Below, piece after piece: positions 3,269 to 10,803 of a stretch of 64,000 nt of DNA. Where the stretch lies: NCBI GenBank assembly GCA_937860145.1, contig CALMBF010000079.1, positions 1-64,000 on the forward strand. Direction: 5' to 3'. Below the pieces are notes generated by a model that saw nothing but the letters and a program-made list of their open reading frames with translations, had not been told where the DNA came from and did not search any database. The stretch's first letter is position 1; each line of letters opens with the position of its first letter. The stretch is from an uncultured Geobacter sp. GTDB taxonomy: Bacteria; Desulfobacterota; Desulfuromonadia; Geobacterales; DSM-12255. A program made the position numbers and the translations under genes.

Positions 3269-3463
3269 ATGAAAAAGTCACTACTGGAAACAAATCCCTA
3301 CCTCAAAAATACCGATAAACGGACCAGCGCGCTGGCAAGAAACGTCGAGACATCCTCCGCCATCGAAGGAATTCGCGTAAAAAGGGATGCCGCAAGCGGG
3401 CGTTTCGTATCACAGGCCAAAGACATCACGACTCCTGCGAAATCTGCAAAGACCTCTCGATAA
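3269..3463 (+). CDS. Small SSAIEG-motif protein, copy 1 (putative Fic-regulating antitoxin-like protein)
   Basis: A 64-residue protein, MKKSLLETNPYLKN..., whose first 13 residues and residues 29-35 (SSAIEGI) match the protein encoded at 6337. There is no Shine-Dalgarno site; instead TATACT (3257-3262) ends 6 nt before the A of the ATG, so the mRNA is probably leaderless. SSAIEG fits the (S/T)xxxE(G/N) inhibitory-helix motif of Fic regulators, and the neighbouring rhuM gene carries a Fic/Doc domain. Antitoxin function is inference; similar small proteins may exist elsewhere without a Fic gene. It runs toward the end of hsdM. Confidence 0.6.
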   Translation: MKKSLLETNPYLKNTDKRTSALARNVETSSAIEGIRVKRDAASGRFVSQAKDITTPAKSAKTSR

Positions 3464-3545: not shown

Positions 3546-5027
3546 TCATTCTTCTACTTCCCCGACATCTTCCGCAATAAGTTTCAGCTGCTCCAGGGCG
3601 CTTTCCAGGTCTTCCATGATGTCCCTGAGGATGACTCCCGGTGCAGGGAGGTTGTCCGAGTCCTCCAGGCTTTCGTCCTTCAGCCAGAAGATATCGAGGC
3701 TCGCCTTGTCTCTGGCGATGATCTCCTCGTATGTGTAGGCGCGCCAGCGGCCGTCGGGCAAGCTATCTGTCCAGGTGGGGGTGCGCTCAAAGCGGTTCGC
3801 CGGGTTGTAGAGACTCACGAACTCGTCCAGGTCCTTTCTCTGGAGCGGGTTCGTCTTGAGGGTGAAGTGCATGTTGGTACGCAGGTCGTAGATCCAGAGC
3901 TTCCTGGTCCAGGGCGTTTCCGAGGCCGGCTTCTTGTCGAAGAAGATCACATTCGCCTTTACCCCCTGGGCATAGAAGAGCCCGGTGGGAAGCCGCAGCA
4001 GCGTGTGCACGTCACATTCATGAAGGAGCTTCTTACGAATCGTCTCCCCTGCCCCACCCTCGAAAAGGACGTTGTCCGGCACCACCACTGCCGCACGGCC
4101 GTGCTGCTTCAGGAGCGTCTTGATGTGCTGGACGAAGTTCAACTGCTTGTTGGAGGTGGTGGCCCAGAAGTCCTGGCGCTCGATGATGTCCTTCTCCACG
4201 TAGACCTTGCCGTCCTCGCCGACGATGGTGGTGGAGCTCTTCTTGCCGAACGGCGGGTTGGTGAGGACCAGGTCGAACCGCTCCCCCGGATCGGCCGCCA
4301 GGGAATCGGACACGGAGAGCGGCAGCTTCTCGCCGCCGATGCCGTGCAGCATCAGGTTCATGGCGCAGAGGCGGGCCGTATTGTGCACCAGCTCCCAGCC
4401 GCGCAGGGTCTGGCTGTCCAGGAACTGCTTCTGCTCCCGGTCCAGTTTAAAGTGCCTAGTCACGTATTCGTGGGTCGCGAACAGGAAGCCGCCGGTGCCG
4501 CAGGCCGGGTCGCAGACCGTCTCCCTCGGTTTTGGTGCCATGACGTCGACCATGGCTTTGATCAGCGGCCGCGGCGTGAAGTATTGCCCTGCCCCGCTCT
4601 TGGTGTCCTGGGCATTCTTCTCCAGGAGCCCTTCGTAGGCGTCACCCTTGACGTCGGCGCTCATGATCGACCAGTTTTCCTTGTCCAGCAGGTCCACGAG
4701 CAGTCGGCGCAGCTTGGCCGGGTCCTGGAACTTGTTCTGCGCCCGGCCGAAGATGAGGCCGAGCAGCCCCTTCTCCTGCCCCAGCTTCTCCAGGGTGTGG
4801 CGGTAGTGGTCGAACAGGTCGTCCCCGTCCCTCTTCAGCAGGCTCGGCCAATCGTAGCCGTTTGGTACGGGGCTCTTCTGGTCGAAGGGCTTCTTGGTGC
4901 GCTCGTCGGCCATCTTGAGGAAGAGGAGAAAGGTGAGCTGCTCGACGTAGTCGCCGTAGCTCATGCCGTCGTCGCGGAGGACATTGCAGAAGTTCCAGAG
5001 TTTTTGGACGATTGCGGCTGGGGTCAT
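3546..5027 (-). CDS. hsdM: Type I restriction-modification system, methyltransferase subunit HsdM
   Basis: A 493-residue N6-adenine DNA methyltransferase. The N-terminal helical HsdM_N region (~1-140, starting MTPAAIVQKLWNFCNVLRDD) is followed by the catalytic domain: the AdoMet motif VCDPACGTGGFLFATHEY (~190) and the catalytic NPPFG (motif IV, ~285). The length is normal for the family. With HsdS it methylates the recognition sequence, and with HsdR it forms the restriction complex. It starts 2 nt after the rhuM/fic stop codon, so the two genes are co-transcribed and probably translationally coupled; hsdS and hsdR lie farther upstream on the same strand, separated by the tRNA-like array and a small gene. 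Confidence 0.95.
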   Translation of the reverse strand: MTPAAIVQKLWNFCNVLRDDGMSYGDYVEQLTFLLFLKMADERTKKPFDQKSPVPNGYDWPSLLKRDGDDLFDHYRHTLEKLGQEKGLLGLIFGRAQNKFQDPAKLRRLLVDLLDKENWSIMSADVKGDAYEGLLEKNAQDTKSGAGQYFTPRPLIKAMVDVMAPKPRETVCDPACGTGGFLFATHEYVTRHFKLDREQKQFLDSQTLRGWELVHNTARLCAMNLMLHGIGGEKLPLSVSDSLAADPGERFDLVLTNPPFGKKSSTTIVGEDGKVYVEKDIIERQDFWATTSNKQLNFVQHIKTLLKQHGRAAVVVPDNVLFEGGAGETIRKKLLHECDVHTLLRLPTGLFYAQGVKANVIFFDKKPASETPWTRKLWIYDLRTNMHFTLKTNPLQRKDLDEFVSLYNPANRFERTPTWTDSLPDGRWRAYTYEEIIARDKASLDIFWLKDESLEDSDNLPAPGVILRDIMEDLESALEQLKLIAEDVGEVEE

Positions 5028-5029
5028 GT

Positions 5030-6016
5030 TCAGTCATTGCTCCGGTTGATAAGATTGACGATTACCTTGACGATGGTTTCCTTCTCCTCCGGCCTGCTCT
5101 CGGCAATCAGCAGCGTCAGCGCCACCAGGGCATTGTCGGCCAGCCTTTTGGAGCCATCGGGGCGGTAGAGGATGCCGTTTTGCCCCAGGAAATAGATGAA
5201 CAGGGCGGCAGCGATCCTTTTGTTGCCGTCGCTGAAGGCGTGGTTCTTGACCACGAAATAGAGGAGGTTCGCCCCCTTCTCTTCAACACTCGGGTAGAGT
5301 TCTTCACCGCCGAAGGTCTGGTAGATGGCCCCGAGGGCACTCTTGAACCCCTGGTCCTTTTCCACCCCAAACAGGCCGTCAAATTCACCCTTCATGGCAT
5401 TGACGATGCGAATCCCCTCGTCGTAATCGATGATATGCAACGCCTGCCTGGTGGTCCCTTCGATGGCCAGGGTACCGTGGTCGTAGCGATCCAGGGTTGC
5501 CAGGGCGTAGGCATAATCGTTGATCACCCTCAGCACATCCCGGCCGGTGTCGGTAATCATCTCCTGCGTCGTCAGGGTCCGAGCCAGCAGCTCCATGGTC
5601 TGCCGCATCTCCTGCAGCTTGGCCGATTCTTCACGCAACCGCTGCTCGTTGACCGTGTACCCTTTGACGATGTGGTCATGCAGCACTTGGGTTGCCCACT
5701 GGCGGAAGCGGGTCCCCTGCTGGGATTTGACCCGGTAGCCGACGGAGATAATGACGTCGAGGTTATAATGGGCGGCATCGTAAGATTTGCCATCCGCGGC
5801 AGTTATTCGGAAATTCCGAATAACTGACTCTTCCTTCAACTCGCCTTCCCTGAAAACATTCTTGATGTGCTCGTTAATGGTAGGGATGGTCTTCCCGAAC
5901 AGCTCTGCCATCTGCTTCTGGGTAAGCCAGACTGTCTCGTGATCAAGGTGAACCTGGAGAGAAGTTACGCCGGTCTCAGCCTGATAGATGACAATATCGC
6001 CCTTCTCTGAGTTCAT
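5030..6016 (-). CDS. RhuM family protein with C-terminal Fic/Doc domain
   Basis: A 328-residue fusion. Residues ~1-125 are a RhuM domain (VWLTQKQMAELFGKT, a helix-turn-helix-like start; HYNLDVIISVGYRVKS; FRQWATQVLHDHIVKGY). A helical linker follows, then a Fic/Doc domain with the motif HAFSDGNKR at residues 259-267. The Lys after GN and the lack of a second Arg (GNKRIAA) resemble Doc kinases more than AMP-transferring Fic proteins. A (S/T)xxxEG-like stretch, TLAIEG, lies at ~182-187. RhuM proteins are commonly linked to type I restriction loci; their molecular role is not established. Palindromes upstream (6079-6137) may be its operator. Confidence 0.88.
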   Translation of the reverse strand: MNSEKGDIVIYQAETGVTSLQVHLDHETVWLTQKQMAELFGKTIPTINEHIKNVFREGELKEESVIRNFRITAADGKSYDAAHYNLDVIISVGYRVKSQQGTRFRQWATQVLHDHIVKGYTVNEQRLREESAKLQEMRQTMELLARTLTTQEMITDTGRDVLRVINDYAYALATLDRYDHGTLAIEGTTRQALHIIDYDEGIRIVNAMKGEFDGLFGVEKDQGFKSALGAIYQTFGGEELYPSVEEKGANLLYFVVKNHAFSDGNKRIAAALFIYFLGQNGILYRPDGSKRLADNALVALTLLIAESRPEEKETIVKVIVNLINRSND

Positions 6017-6078: not shown

Positions 6079-6145
6079 CAGTTAGTGCAAAAAATGCAAC
6101 AACTGAAAAGAAACGGCAATTGTTTCCAAAATGGAAAATGTTGCC
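6079..6145. promoter_or_regulatory. Dyad symmetries between rhuM/fic and the anticodon-arm array
   Basis: Two imperfect palindromes lie in the divergent region. 6079-6105 has arms CAGTT/AACTG and TGCA/TGCA around an A-rich centre. 6114-6145 is a longer dyad, GGCAA..TTTCC-aaaat-GGAAA..TTGCC. Both sit upstream of the rhuM start (6016) and upstream of the putative plus-strand promoter of the array, so they could bind a regulator such as RhuM itself. That is inference. Confidence 0.4.
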
Positions 6146-6150
6146 ACTTC

Positions 6151-6159
6151 TGTTAGTAT
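6151..6159 (+). promoter_or_regulatory. Extended -10 element before the anticodon-arm array
   Basis: TGTTAGTAT is an extended -10 (TGn plus TAGTAT at 6154-6159). Transcription would start near 6166, immediately before the first anticodon stem (6167). No good -35 hexamer is visible at 16-18 nt, as is common for extended -10 promoters. Confidence 0.45.
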
Positions 6160-6161
6160 CC

Positions 6162-6304
6162 GAGCAACGGCCTTCTAAGCCGTAGCACTAAAGACATCAG
6201 ACTTAGGATCCGGTGCGTATGGCTCGTCGGGCTCATAACCCGGAGGCCAAAATAAGCACACAAGATTCAGGTTCTTGTGCTCGCAAGGGACTTAAAATCC
6301 CTCG
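6162..6304 (+). ncRNA. Tandem array of five tRNA anticodon-arm mimics (Arg-UCU, Leu-UAG, fMet-CAU, Leu-CAG, Leu-UAA)
   Basis: Five successive segments each reproduce the anticodon arm of a different tRNA, all on the plus strand. (1) Arg: stem 6167-6171/6179-6183, loop CTTCTAA, anticodon TCT 6174-6176, within GAGCAACGG...GCCGTAG. (2) Leu: stem 6195-6201/6209-6215 with one A.C mismatch, loop CTTAGGA, anticodon TAG 6204-6206. (3) Initiator Met: stem 6227-6231/6239-6243, loop CTCATAA, anticodon CAT 6234-6236. (4) Leu: stem 6259-6265/6273-6279, loop TTCAGGT, anticodon CAG 6268-6270. (5) Leu: stem 6286-6290/6298-6302, loop CTTAAAA, anticodon TAA 6293-6295. Every loop has 7 nt and U33. Acceptor stems, T-arms and CCA ends are absent, so these are not tRNA genes. 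Matches to the parent tRNAs are from general knowledge of their sequences. Transcription is suggested by the upstream extended -10; no terminator is seen before the next gene. Confidence 0.7.
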
Positions 6305-6336
6305 TTTCAACCCAGCGAATATGGTATAGTTTTCCC

Positions 6337-6516
6337 ATGAAAAAATCACTTCTGGAAACCAATCCCTACCTGAAAGACCCGGAAATGCGAAAGAAGATGA
6401 TGCGCAGGTCAATCATCTCTTCCAGCGCCATCGAAGGAATCTACATAACCGAAGAAGATTTGGATCGTTTCGAAAGAGAAAAGGCCGAGAAAGAATCTTC
6501 TGATACTTCAAGCTAA
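6337..6516 (+). CDS. Small SSAIEG-motif protein, copy 2
   Basis: A 59-residue paralogue of the protein at 3269: MKKSLLETNPYLKD, then a basic stretch (MRKKMMRRS), SSAIEGI at 29-35, and an acidic helix-forming tail. As in copy 1, no Shine-Dalgarno site is present; TATAGT (6325-6330), preceded by TGG, ends exactly 6 nt before the ATG, pointing to a leaderless mRNA. The sequence around the promoter (GCGAAT..GGTATA.T......ATG) is also shared with copy 1, so the unit was duplicated with its control region. It lies directly after the anticodon-arm array and converges on hsdS. An antitoxin-like role toward the Fic domain is a hypothesis. Confidence 0.62.
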   Translation: MKKSLLETNPYLKDPEMRKKMMRRSIISSSAIEGIYITEEDLDRFEREKAEKESSDTSS

Positions 6517-6553: not shown

Positions 6554-7963
6554 CTATCCACCCGAAAACGCCCGTTGTAGGATCGTCTGCCGCAGACGCT
6601 CGGCGCGTTTGAGGTTGGTTGCGATGGTAGTTTCGAGTTCTTCGGTGACTGAGAGGCGACGGTCGATATCGTCGATGATCTGCCCCTGTTCAACAAATGA
6701 TGGAAGCGGTATTGGAAGGTCCCGACACAATTCCAAAGTCAAATTCGATTGTCCTGCAGTTGTTTTAGCTCGTTTAATCGCCCACGACATAACAGAATCA
6801 GTCATTAACGTGTAAGCCAGAAACCGGTTTGAAAGTCCATTTATAGGTCGATACCTAGCAATTGCTTGATTGATATTTGCCTCAACAATTTCGGCCGGCA
6901 CAACCGAGACTTGACCAAGAGGTGGACCTACAATATTAATCAGTACGTCACTAGCAATTACCCTTGAACGAGCAAGTTCTCCCTGATGAACAGACTGATC
7001 AACGAAAGCAGGCTTGAAGTTGTAGTTGAGCCTTCCGGAAAAGGTGAGATTATAAACCTTAAGAAAACGCACATCTCCTCCACCTTCAAGCAATTTGGTA
7101 GCAGAGGGAGTTGTTCCTTTGGTTATAAAGTCTGATACCTGTTCAGCTCTCGCCCACACCCACCCCTCCGGCAACTCCGGCAGATTGGCCGTATCCGGCC
7201 CGGCAGGCTCCTTGTATTTCTTCCTCCACGAATCATCCTTCGGCTTTATCCCCTTCGACTTCATCTTCGCCAGCTCTTCGGCTTCCCACTTGGCGCGGCG
7301 CTCGGCGAGGATGCGCTTGAGGAGCTGATCGGCAGGCTCGACGTCGGGATGGTCCTTCCGCCACTGCTCGGTGAGCTTCCCTTCCACGGCGGCCTTCAGC
7401 ACAGCTGCCTTGTACCGCTTGAGGTTCGCCTGAATCCGCTTCAGTGCGGTCACGGCCTCATCGAGGCGTGAGAACTGCTTTTCGATTTCTGAAACAACTT
7501 CATGTTGCTCTTCGATTGTCGGCGGGGCATAGATTTCGTGGTCTAAAATGTGACTCTTGGAGATTCCGGGAATGTCACCCACGGCATGCCGGATGACATC
7601 CTGTACGCTGTATATGATGGCCCAATATATAAACTTCTCAGAAACGTTGTCGTTCGGTTTGAAGGCATAAACGTCACGCCCTATCGAGCAGGCAATGCCA
7701 GGAAAAGTTTTACCAACGCCTGCGCCTTTAACCGTAATGAAGATACAACCTTCAGGAACGACCCGCTTCGGGGCTGTCGTCCATTTCGAAAGATGCACCT
7801 TTGAACCGTCCCATTGTTCGGGACCGGTGACATAGACAGTGCCTATGCCTGATGTATTGACATCTTTCGTCGAGGGAGACTGGCCGCAGAACAGCTTCCC
7901 AAGGTCGGAAAGTTTCTTCTTTTCCCAACGGGAAGCATCAATAGAAATTGCAGAAGAACTCAC
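6554..7963 (-). CDS. hsdS: Type I restriction-modification system, specificity subunit HsdS
   Basis: A 469-residue DNA recognition subunit with the usual two halves. Each half has a variable target recognition domain (~10-150 and ~265-400) followed by a conserved helical spacer: FSRLDEAVTALKRIQANLKRYKAAVLKAAVEGKL after the first and LKRAERLRQTILQRAFSGG at the C-terminus. It sets the bipartite recognition site of the HsdM/HsdR complex. Its ATG overlaps the hsdR stop by 4 nt, so the two are translationally coupled. The DNA encoding the second recognition domain is noticeably AT-richer than its surroundings, as expected for a recombining specificity module. Confidence 0.94.
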   Translation of the reverse strand: MSSSAISIDASRWEKKKLSDLGKLFCGQSPSTKDVNTSGIGTVYVTGPEQWDGSKVHLSKWTTAPKRVVPEGCIFITVKGAGVGKTFPGIACSIGRDVYAFKPNDNVSEKFIYWAIIYSVQDVIRHAVGDIPGISKSHILDHEIYAPPTIEEQHEVVSEIEKQFSRLDEAVTALKRIQANLKRYKAAVLKAAVEGKLTEQWRKDHPDVEPADQLLKRILAERRAKWEAEELAKMKSKGIKPKDDSWRKKYKEPAGPDTANLPELPEGWVWARAEQVSDFITKGTTPSATKLLEGGGDVRFLKVYNLTFSGRLNYNFKPAFVDQSVHQGELARSRVIASDVLINIVGPPLGQVSVVPAEIVEANINQAIARYRPINGLSNRFLAYTLMTDSVMSWAIKRAKTTAGQSNLTLELCRDLPIPLPSFVEQGQIIDDIDRRLSVTEELETTIATNLKRAERLRQTILQRAFSGG

Positions 7964-10803
7964 GCTGCCAGCACCTCATTCAACTCCTCCAACATGGGCC
8001 ACAACTCCTCTCCGAACAACTGATAAACCTTGCCGATCCCACCGTTCTCCTTGAACGGGGTAAACTCGAAATCGTCCCGCCCGATCTCCAGGCTGGCAAT
8101 AACGTGGTCCCGGATCATCTCCAGCCAGCGCCGCTGTTCGTCGGTGAACTTCTTCCCGGTCTGTTCCTGCTTCGCAAGCCACGCCGCGAACCGCTCGGCT
8201 ACATGCTCGGCGAACGGCTCCAGCACCGGCTCCTGGTGCAGGGCAAAACGGACCAGGGAGACGATGTCGGTCCAGAGCCGTCTGGTCCCCGCCCCCTTCA
8301 CCCTGGACGCCTCCAGGGCCGCGTAGGCGTCCCAGAGCCGGTCGATCCGCCAGAGGTAGGGGGGCTTCTCGATCAGCTCGGCCAGCCCCTTGACCTCCTC
8401 GTATTTCAGCCGCTGGTGGTAGGGGCGGCTGTAGAGGATCTGCAGGGCGGTGATCTCGTCCTTGTGCTCCTCGATGAACTGTTCGAACGACTGCACCAGT
8501 CCCCGCGCGTTCTCCAGCGCCTCGGCGTCGAACCCCGCTTCGATCACCTCGTCGGCGCTGACCGTATCGATCACCTGGTCCGCCTTGGCGTACAGGTCGA
8601 GGATCTTCTCCCTCAGCTTCGGCTCGCAGAGCGGCTTCACCGCCTCCCGGATGAGCTTCACGCCGGCCTGCCTGACCTGCTCGACGGCCGGATCCCTGAC
8701 GCCGAAATCTGTCCTGGCCTGCTCGATCTGCCGCTCCGGGTCGATGGCGGCGATCAGGTCACCGGTCAGCTCCTGCAAACCCTTGCCGCCGGCCAGCTTC
8801 TCGATCTCCCCCCTGGCAGCCGGGTCCAGCTTCCTCTCCAGGCGGGCAAAGCGCCCGGCAATGGAGGAGATCACCTCGCTCTCGGTGTTCCCCAGCGCCA
8901 CGGCCTGGAGGAGCTTTTCCAGGGTAACGGTCGGCTTCTTCTCCAGCGGCCGGGAGTCGGTCTTGTCCTCCTCGCAGACGCCGACCGCATCGACTATGAC
9001 GAAGTGGGTCTTGGCCGCGGCGTCCGGTGTGACCGCCTGCAGGTCGGTGTCGTTGATCACCCGCACCCCGCGCCCCTTCATCTGTTCGAAGAAGGAGCGG
9101 GAGCGGATCATCCGCATGAAGAAGACGCACTCCAGGGGCTTGATGTCGGTGCCGGTGGCGATCATGTCCACGGTGACGGCGATGCGCGGCATGGGGCTGG
9201 TGCGGAAGGAGGCGATGAGCTCTTCGGGCTTGGCGCCGGTGGTGCGGTAGGTGATCTTCTGGCAGAAGTCGTTCCCCTTGCCGAACTCCTCCCTCACGAT
9301 CCGGACGATGTCCTCGGCATGGGAGTCGTCCTTGGCGAAGATGAGGGTCTTGGGGACCCAGGAGCGGCCGGGGAAGATCTCGGTCAGCACCTTGTCCCTG
9401 AAGGTCTTGACCACGGTGCGGATCTGGTCCACGGCCACCACGTCCCGGTCCAGCTGGTTCGCCTCGTAGGAGAGGTCCTCGTCCAGCCTTTCCCAGCGCA
9501 CGGCCCGCGTATCCCGCTCGCGGCGGTCGACGTAGTGCCCTGCCTCCACCAGCGAGCCCCCCTGGGTAATCCTGGTCCTGATGCGGTAGACGTCGTAGTT
9601 GACGTTGACCCCGTCGGCCACCGCCTGCTCGTGGGGATATTCCATCACCAGGTTCTGGTTGAAGAAGCCGAAGGTCTGCTTGCTCGGGGTGGCGGTCAGC
9701 CCCACCAGGAAGCCGTCGAAGTACTCCAGCACCTGGCGCCAGAGGTTGTAGATGGAGCGGTGGCACTCGTCGGTGACGATCAGGTCGAAGGTCTCGGGGG
9801 GGATGGCCGGGTTGTAAACCACCGGCGGCGGCTCCCGGAAGAGGCTCTCATGGTCGAAGAGCGACTCCTCCTCCAGCTCCGGGGCCAGCTCCTCTCCCCG
9901 CAGGATGGAGTAGAGCCGCTGGATGGTACAGATGCAGACCCGCGCCGTGGCGTCCAGGCGGTTCGACTGGAGATGGTTGACGATGTACTCCTCGGTGAAC
10001 TTGAACGGCGTGTAGGGGGACTGGTACTGCTGGAACTCCTTCAGGGTCTGGCGCCCCAGGTTGGCCCGGTCGACGAGGAAGAGCACCCGCCGGGCGCCCG
10101 CGAACTTGAGCTGGCGGTAGATGAAGGAGACGGCGGTGAAGGTCTTGCCCGAGCCGGTGGCCATCTGCACCAGGGAGCGGGGGCGATCATTGGCCAGGGA
10201 CTTCTCCAGGTTGGCGATCGCCGTGGACTGGGCGGGCCAGAGCCCGTCCGTATGCAGAGCCGGCATGCGGCGCAGGCGGCTGCGGTAGGTCTGCGGCGTC
10301 CAGTGGGCGCCCGTCTCGGCAGCCAGGAGGTGATCCCCCTCTCCCCGGCCCTCTCCCACCGGGGGAGAGGGGGAAAATCCGTCATCAAGCCAGGCGGCAA
10401 GGGTTTCAGGGCGGTGGAACGAAAAGACCCGCCGCGCGCGGGGCTCTGGATCGAGGCCGTTCGTAAAGTGCGTCTCGACTCCGGTGGATTCATAGCAGAA
10501 GGGAAGCGGCTGAAACCAGGCAGGGAGGGTGCTGGGGAGCCCTTTCGTGTAGCGGTCGGACTGAATCTCCACGCCGGAAAGGGTAGTGCCGGCCTTCTTG
10601 GCCTCGATTACTCCGGCCGCCTGACCGTCCACATAGAGGAGGTAGTCGGCAAAGCCGAAGCCGGACTTGAGCGGAAACTCGCGGATCGCCACACCCCGGC
10701 CGGCGTGCAGGTTGACGCTTTTATAGTCCTGCACCAGCCAGCCGGCTTCAAGCAACATCCGGTCGATCTCTATGCGCGCTTCCTGTTCCGGGGTCATCTG
10801 CAT
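7960..10803 (-). CDS. hsdR: Type I restriction-modification system, endonuclease/translocase subunit HsdR
   Basis: A 947-residue motor and nuclease subunit. The N-terminal nuclease domain has FADYLLYVDGQAAGVIEAKK (D...ExK-type metal site, ~50-70). The SF2 helicase core has Walker A MATGSGKTFTA (~220), the DEAH-type TDECHRS (~345) and GLTATPSK (~370); the C-terminal ~300 residues are helical. It cleaves unmodified DNA after translocation. ATG 10803 follows GAGG closely; the ATG six bases downstream has better spacing, so the exact start is uncertain. A 39-bp palindromic repeat is inserted in frame near residue 150 (SPSPPVGEGRGEG), between the nuclease and helicase domains, apparently without breaking the frame. 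Confidence 0.94.
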   Translation of the reverse strand: MQMTPEQEARIEIDRMLLEAGWLVQDYKSVNLHAGRGVAIREFPLKSGFGFADYLLYVDGQAAGVIEAKKAGTTLSGVEIQSDRYTKGLPSTLPAWFQPLPFCYESTGVETHFTNGLDPEPRARRVFSFHRPETLAAWLDDGFSPSPPVGEGRGEGDHLLAAETGAHWTPQTYRSRLRRMPALHTDGLWPAQSTAIANLEKSLANDRPRSLVQMATGSGKTFTAVSFIYRQLKFAGARRVLFLVDRANLGRQTLKEFQQYQSPYTPFKFTEEYIVNHLQSNRLDATARVCICTIQRLYSILRGEELAPELEEESLFDHESLFREPPPVVYNPAIPPETFDLIVTDECHRSIYNLWRQVLEYFDGFLVGLTATPSKQTFGFFNQNLVMEYPHEQAVADGVNVNYDVYRIRTRITQGGSLVEAGHYVDRRERDTRAVRWERLDEDLSYEANQLDRDVVAVDQIRTVVKTFRDKVLTEIFPGRSWVPKTLIFAKDDSHAEDIVRIVREEFGKGNDFCQKITYRTTGAKPEELIASFRTSPMPRIAVTVDMIATGTDIKPLECVFFMRMIRSRSFFEQMKGRGVRVINDTDLQAVTPDAAAKTHFVIVDAVGVCEEDKTDSRPLEKKPTVTLEKLLQAVALGNTESEVISSIAGRFARLERKLDPAARGEIEKLAGGKGLQELTGDLIAAIDPERQIEQARTDFGVRDPAVEQVRQAGVKLIREAVKPLCEPKLREKILDLYAKADQVIDTVSADEVIEAGFDAEALENARGLVQSFEQFIEEHKDEITALQILYSRPYHQRLKYEEVKGLAELIEKPPYLWRIDRLWDAYAALEASRVKGAGTRRLWTDIVSLVRFALHQEPVLEPFAEHVAERFAAWLAKQEQTGKKFTDEQRRWLEMIRDHVIASLEIGRDDFEFTPFKENGGIGKVYQLFGEELWPMLEELNEVLAA
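10335..10373. repeat. REP-like palindrome inside hsdR
   Basis: The arms CCCCCTCTCCCC and GGGGAGAGGGGG flank CTCTCCC. On the coding strand it reads SPSPPVGEGRGEG, the signature of a widespread family of dispersed GC-rich palindromes normally found between genes. Here it sits in frame within a coding region. Confidence 0.6.

Follow-up and report, generated by a model that had tools for sequence, protein, structure and literature searches.

The window analysed here, a stretch of 64,000 nucleotides from an uncultured Geobacter sp., carries on its minus strand a type I restriction operon comprising hsdR, hsdS, an accessory region, rhuM and hsdM. The accessory region contains, on the plus strand, an array of five partial tRNA genes, which follow each other head to tail in a single orientation, and an open reading frame (ORF) of 59 residues. 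The features are listed below; identities of the array units were obtained by alignment to complete tRNA genes of the same genome.

3269..3463, plus strand: second FicA-like ORF, 64 aa, with no arms adjoining
3546..5027, minus strand: hsdM (Pfam and PADLOC)
5030..6016, minus strand: rhuM, with RhuM plus Fic/Doc domains (Virulence_RhuM, Fic)
6085..6165, minus strand: probable remnant of a further rhuM gene, reading LTEVATFSILETIAV (compare LTEAAAISILETTAA in locus L227); the stretch is conserved in genomes G024 and G002
6162..6304, plus strand: the complete array, with five partial tRNA genes; G024 has a homologous array and G002 a partly homologous one
6162..6185, plus strand: unit 1, tRNA-Arg(UCU) nt 23-46, 17-nt arm at 6167-6183; identity 24/24 to the genome's own tRNA-Arg(UCU)
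6195..6213, plus strand: unit 2, tRNA-Leu(UAG) nt 26-44, arm at 6197-6213 with one A.C mismatch and one wobble pair; identity 17/19
6222..6249, plus strand: unit 3, tRNA-fMet(CAU) nt 23-50, arm at 6227-6243; identity 26/28
6257..6289, plus strand: unit 4, tRNA-Leu(CAG) nt 24-56, arm at 6261-6277; identity 32/33
6282..6304, plus strand: unit 5, tRNA-Leu(UAA) nt 24-46, arm at 6286-6302, overlapping the 3' end of the unit 4 match; identity 23/23
6337..6516, plus strand: orphan FicA-like antitoxin ORF, 59 aa, motif SSSAIEG, TATAGT at 6325-6330; no FicT match at cutoff in the genome
6554..7963, minus strand: hsdS (Pfam and PADLOC)
7960..10803, minus strand: hsdR (Pfam and PADLOC)

For each unit, the match begins at tRNA nt 23-26, ends at nt 44-56 and includes the entire anticodon arm; the units are internal to the tRNA, and none reaches an end of a tRNA gene. 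All five match complete tRNAs of the genome. The array is far beyond chance, with four units matching tRNA genes at E-values from 9e-9 to 1e-4 in a whole-genome search. An initial annotation of this DNA had described five anticodon arms at 6162-6304 on one strand, with intact anticodons and U33, a mismatched A.C pair in unit 2 and neither acceptor nor T arms, and we find all of this as described. Its view of the units as bare arms needs correction, since the 3' strand of the D stem is also present and the units are better seen as tRNA segments of approximately nt 23-50. Likewise, the loop centres, which it took to be regularly spaced, are 30, 30, 34 and 25 nt apart in the window, but their spacing differs between relatives. 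ARAGORN detects no complete tRNA anywhere in the window, and the units are not remnants of full tRNA genes still present beside the array. The sole Rfam match in the window is unrelated, a c-di-GMP-I riboswitch (RF01051, 49.1 bits) at 1843-1918 on the minus strand, upstream of a 302-aa ORF at 900-1808.

The SSSAIEG motif of the 59-aa ORF is the Fic-inhibiting motif, and the family of this ORF is present in 22 of 97 relatives. In many relatives the FicA-like ORF is convergent to a Fic gene, near or overlapping it, as expected of a FicT/FicA pair. Both FicA-like ORFs of the window look orphaned, as no FicT match in its genome reaches the cutoff. The TATAGT at 6325-6330 suggests that the 59-aa ORF is probably leaderless; the second ORF, which lies close to the 3' end of hsdM, has a GGTATACTG box right before its ATG. 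The approximately 80 nt before unit 1 are probably the relic of another rhuM gene. A candidate promoter in front of unit 1, TGTTAGTAT, which is conserved in three genomes, falls within this probable relic, and its conservation is therefore no evidence for a promoter.

Arrays in related genomes and the origin of their units

Absence from all relatives, an outcome that the initial annotation had named as speaking against it, is not what we observe. Geomobilimonas luticola (G024) has a homologous five-unit array (82% over 201 nt) and G002, of the same family, a partly homologous one with four units. Through the loci around FicA-like ORFs, FicT, DUF3800 and hsdM, we found further arrays of one to six units in Geobacteraceae and relatives, mostly in a single type of type I operon with the order hsdR-hsdS-accessory-hsdM. 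Among the 12 close hsdM genes, which are 79-100% identical to that of the window, six have arms 28-240 nt upstream that point away from hsdM, where this and all other locus and unit counts take related loci separately, ignoring shared ancestry. A seventh contig stops inside an apparent Arg unit. The window's own array is located one gene further up from hsdM than in the six arrayed relatives, which carry the following units upstream of hsdM:

G026: six units, Pro(GGG), fMet, Leu(CAG), Leu(UAG), Leu(CAA), Leu(UAA)
G075: Arg, Pro, fMet
G110: Arg, Pro, Leu(UAA)
G052: Arg, Ser(CGA)
G069: a single unit, Pro
G091: a single unit, Arg

The order of the units hardly varies: Arg comes first and Pro or Leu(UAG) second, and these are followed by fMet, Leu(CAG), other Leu, Leu(UAA) and Phe. 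Of 34 units, 32 retain the anticodon and 33 retain U33. Searches of viral contigs with three two-arm patterns and the FicA-like ORF gave no array match, and blastn against phages and plasmids yielded only short matches, many of them in tRNA genes, and no array.

We distinguish two types of units. Those of the right type, to which the window array belongs, extend from nt 18-28 to nt 43-58 of the tRNA with few exceptions; the far-end units of the G052 and G110 arrays continue as far as the 3' end of the tRNA or close to it. Left-type units are 5' parts of tRNAs and do reach an end of the tRNA gene. They precede DUF3800 genes as Thr(CGU) nt 1-46 plus Asn(GUU) nt 1-41, and FicT-like genes as Asn nt 1-41, sometimes with a Thr arm in front. 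FicT and DUF3800 are unrelated, yet the Asn units before both end at the same position, just past GTTAA in the anticodon loop. The FicT/FicA pair is bracketed by inward-pointing arms, as is the pair of DUF3800 and the DUF3800-V RNA (Rfam RF02964), an RNA that lies beside DUF3800 in three arrayed loci but is absent from the window. Most FicT relatives have no arms, and neither has a plasmid of Ca. Tenderia electrophaga, which encodes a DUF3800 protein (59% identical) with an adjacent DUF3800-V RNA (L327 6001-6767).

Other genes and unusual stems are found at some of these loci. In G002, G075 and G122, one lone Pro(GGG) arm stands after a PIN-domain (VapC-like) gene (L332 7606-8077, L333 5054-5519, L058 10046-10080). 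Between hsdR and hsdS, an IS200-like (Y1_Tnp) gene or a similar ORF is located in L045 (2456-3106), L245 (8218-8868) and L247 (10046-10666). The stems at L208 7687-7712 and L243 11114-11164 have 14 and 10 bp, far beyond those of tRNAs, and their flanks are complementary, as if produced by foldback copying.

Comparison with native tRNA genes shows that the units have different sources. The Leu(CAG) unit of G026 equals its own host's tRNA over 34 nt, at a stem that differs in several other genomes; the Ser unit of G052 equals a native gene over 68 nt; and the Pro(GGG) arm after the PIN-domain gene carries the host's own Pro stem variant in both G002 and G075. In contrast, the Leu(CAG) unit of G024 differs from the Leu(CAG) of its host. 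The Arg arm of G052 (ATAGC..GCTAT), which is two base pairs off the host tRNA, had been a candidate for compensatory stem evolution; it turned out to be a copy, identical in 29 of 29 nt, of the native tRNA-Arg(UCU) of a congener, found in G105 and G038. In G080 the arms are decayed. Given these host-type copies, non-host copies and decayed arms, we conclude that units were copied repeatedly from the tRNA genes of this group, move between species with the locus, and decay.

Anticodon arms as proposed integrase attachment sites

Every unit holds an anticodon arm, whose inverted repeats flank a 7-bp overlap located in the anticodon loop, and nearly all right-type units share their boundaries around the anticodon. 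The attachment sites of ICEBs1 have the same layout, being 17 bp long with 5-bp repeats around a 7-bp spacer (PMC3715440), and among 3919 mapped islands, 2083 have their site centred on the anticodon (PMC4383910). Our main reading, to which we assign a probability of about 0.5, is that the window array consists of DNA attachment-site copies for tyrosine integrases whose crossover point lies within the anticodon arm, and that these copies mark the entry spot of accessory cassettes. The 17-bp arm in each unit (5-bp inverted repeats around the 7-bp loop) would then represent the core site of tRNA-targeting tyrosine integrases. In the hsdR-hsdS-x-hsdM operon family, such copies would have accumulated in the interval from hsdS to hsdM, as points at which integrative elements and small cassettes of accessory genes (the Fic pair, DUF3800 with its RNA, and others) could enter while sparing the working tRNA genes.

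Split tRNA genes are present in the window's own genome, as 3' halves of tRNA-Gln(CUG), Gly(CCC) and Gly(GCC) (L098 711-762, L099 3751-3800, L100 1347-1394). Both Gly halves adjoin tyrosine integrase genes, and with L334 the 3' halves of Gly and Ser tRNAs are seen beside tyrosine integrases in the genome and the taxonomic order of the window. A remnant of a tyrosine integrase in G052, comprising its C-terminal part and matching the integrase at a Gly site at 50% over 91 aa, directly abuts the Ser unit, next to the Arg unit and hsdM. This Ser unit continues through to the tRNA 3' end, and the arrangement is as expected of an element integrated at the Ser unit of the array; a search with Ser-arm words did not find the other, left end of the element. 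The chromosomal tRNA-Thr(CGU) of G110 retains only nt 1-45, and a complete tRNA-Thr(CGU) of foreign type follows after 82 nt (L293 551-595 and 678-752; contig C35). The cut gene is a left-type fragment and matches the left-type Thr units; on its contig, tblastn with four local integrases revealed no integrase.

Several observations argue against attachment sites. The same tblastn searches detected no integrase relative near the window array or most arrayed loci, the remnant in G052 being the only case. Internal tRNA fragments are not left by ordinary integration and were rejected in island mapping (PMC4383910), which weakens this reading for the right-type units, and a tandem of different tRNAs is not an ordinary integration product. 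On the other side, we count in favour of attachment sites that the DUF3800/RNA pair occurs elsewhere without arms. A set of decoy attB sites had been the second proposal of the initial annotation, and its attB part is supported by the 17-bp core units, the split tRNAs beside integrases in the same taxonomic order and the G052 remnant, which it fits better than an RNA decoy does. From these we infer that the units are or were recombined by integrases. Accessory genes come and go at the array's spot in the restriction operon, and the array, most likely made of attachment-site copies, may be under selection as a landing or decoy site or may persist simply as a trace.

The closest known counterparts are the tRNA-gene attachment sites of tyrosine-integrase islands (the Islander set and the attB of ICEBs1), which share the 17-bp anticodon-arm core, the marking of integration by tRNA fragments and, at one array unit, an adjacent integrase remnant. 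The arrays differ from them in combining several tRNAs in tandem, in consisting of internal fragments, in lying outside any tRNA locus and in usually having no integrase nearby. Integron cassette arrays are similar in that small gene cassettes are parted by short, potentially hairpin-forming sites; here, however, we noticed no IntI or attC in the gene lists, the sites are copies of tRNA genes and the cassette ends point inward.

A restriction operon that gathers tandem target cores of several tRNA-directed integrases beside exchanged defence and toxin-antitoxin genes would provide defence islands with a route for collecting genes. If the sites are used, the arrays may also act as traps for integrating elements; for ICEBs1, residence in a secondary site impairs excision and harms both element and host (PMC3715440). 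It is a tentative possibility, on the doubtful side, that the array is a selected set of decoy targets from several host tRNAs, either as DNA landing sites that divert elements into the defence operon or as an RNA sponge that shields anticodons from nucleases. We know of no description of defence by decoy targets copied from several host tRNAs, in DNA or RNA form. If expressed, the array would be a multi-tRNA anticodon decoy, which to our knowledge has no precedent elsewhere. Our literature search, which covered a set of open-access papers, retrieved no earlier description of multi-tRNA anticodon-arm arrays.

Possible alternatives: RNA decoys, inert scars and mobile hairpins

The initial annotation preferred an RNA decoy for anticodon nucleases. 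In a broader form of this reading, the array would be transcribed into a decoy or antitoxin RNA whose anticodon loops titrate such a nuclease, a toxin that modifies tRNAs or some other protein binding to anticodons. The largely intact loops are consistent with this, as are neighbouring genes of likely tRNA-acting toxin families (PIN, AbiEii-type and Schlafen domains) and the folding of the G026 and G110 arrays, which is better than that of all shuffles (z -4.2 and -4.4). This folding excess is, however, accounted for by the native arms: native segments joined by random linkers come close to this stability (11 of 100 equal or exceed it), and the stability of the window array is unremarkable (z -1.2). 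Extended stems are not the rule, being longer than native in only 5 of 34 units and shorter in 8, with a mean length not above native. The seeming compensatory change in G052 is a copy of another native tRNA, and we found no pair-preserving evolution. A promoter scan gave no promoter-like site for the array strand, and right-type arrays would be antisense within the operon mRNA. FicT and DUF3800 occur mostly without arms, elsewhere and on the plasmid, and we therefore rejected the array as their antitoxin. Finally, PrrC and RloC were recognised neither among the operon genes of the window (Pfam, PADLOC) nor among selected accessory genes of relatives (Pfam). Taken with the loop and folding data, these results make an RNA decoy distinctly unlikely.

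Two known systems bear on this proposal. Type III toxin-antitoxin loci such as ToxIN have a short tandem array beside a toxin gene, and the arrays here resemble them in standing next to toxin-like genes. They differ in that their units are dissimilar and copied from tRNAs, that they are antisense to the operon and that no ToxN-like toxin is present: DUF3800 and Fic are not ToxN, and the ORF that the window array precedes is FicA-like and has a promoter-like box of its own. The second system is EcoprrI, where the anticodon nuclease PrrC is encoded inside a type I restriction-modification operon (PMC3874165). It shares with our loci the type I operon, the accessory genes and the link to anticodon loops; yet no PrrC was recognised here, and its target, tRNA-Lys, is in none of the arrays seen.

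Alternatively, the arms could be inert scars, left by past recombination with tRNA genes as the operon and its cassettes spread, and without present function. Among the 34 units, 8 have a broken stem, arms have decayed at some loci, the G024 units do not match the Leu(CAG) of their host, and at least five close hsdM loci have no array. The retention of anticodons and U33 in nearly all units is at odds with this, as are the nearly constant unit order and the host-type copies in G026 and G002, and we consider inert scars unlikely. Far less probable still is an origin as REP-like hairpin repeats, with an IS200-like (RAYT-type) transposase producing or mobilising them in single-stranded form. The Y1_Tnp gene in L045, with similar ORFs in L245 and L247, would agree with such an origin, and three units have stems extended by copying of one flank (14 bp, 10 bp and one with a bulge). 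L245 and L247 are, however, free of arrays, no transposase-like ORF was seen in the arrayed L041 and L243, and the units stem from different tRNAs, not from one another.
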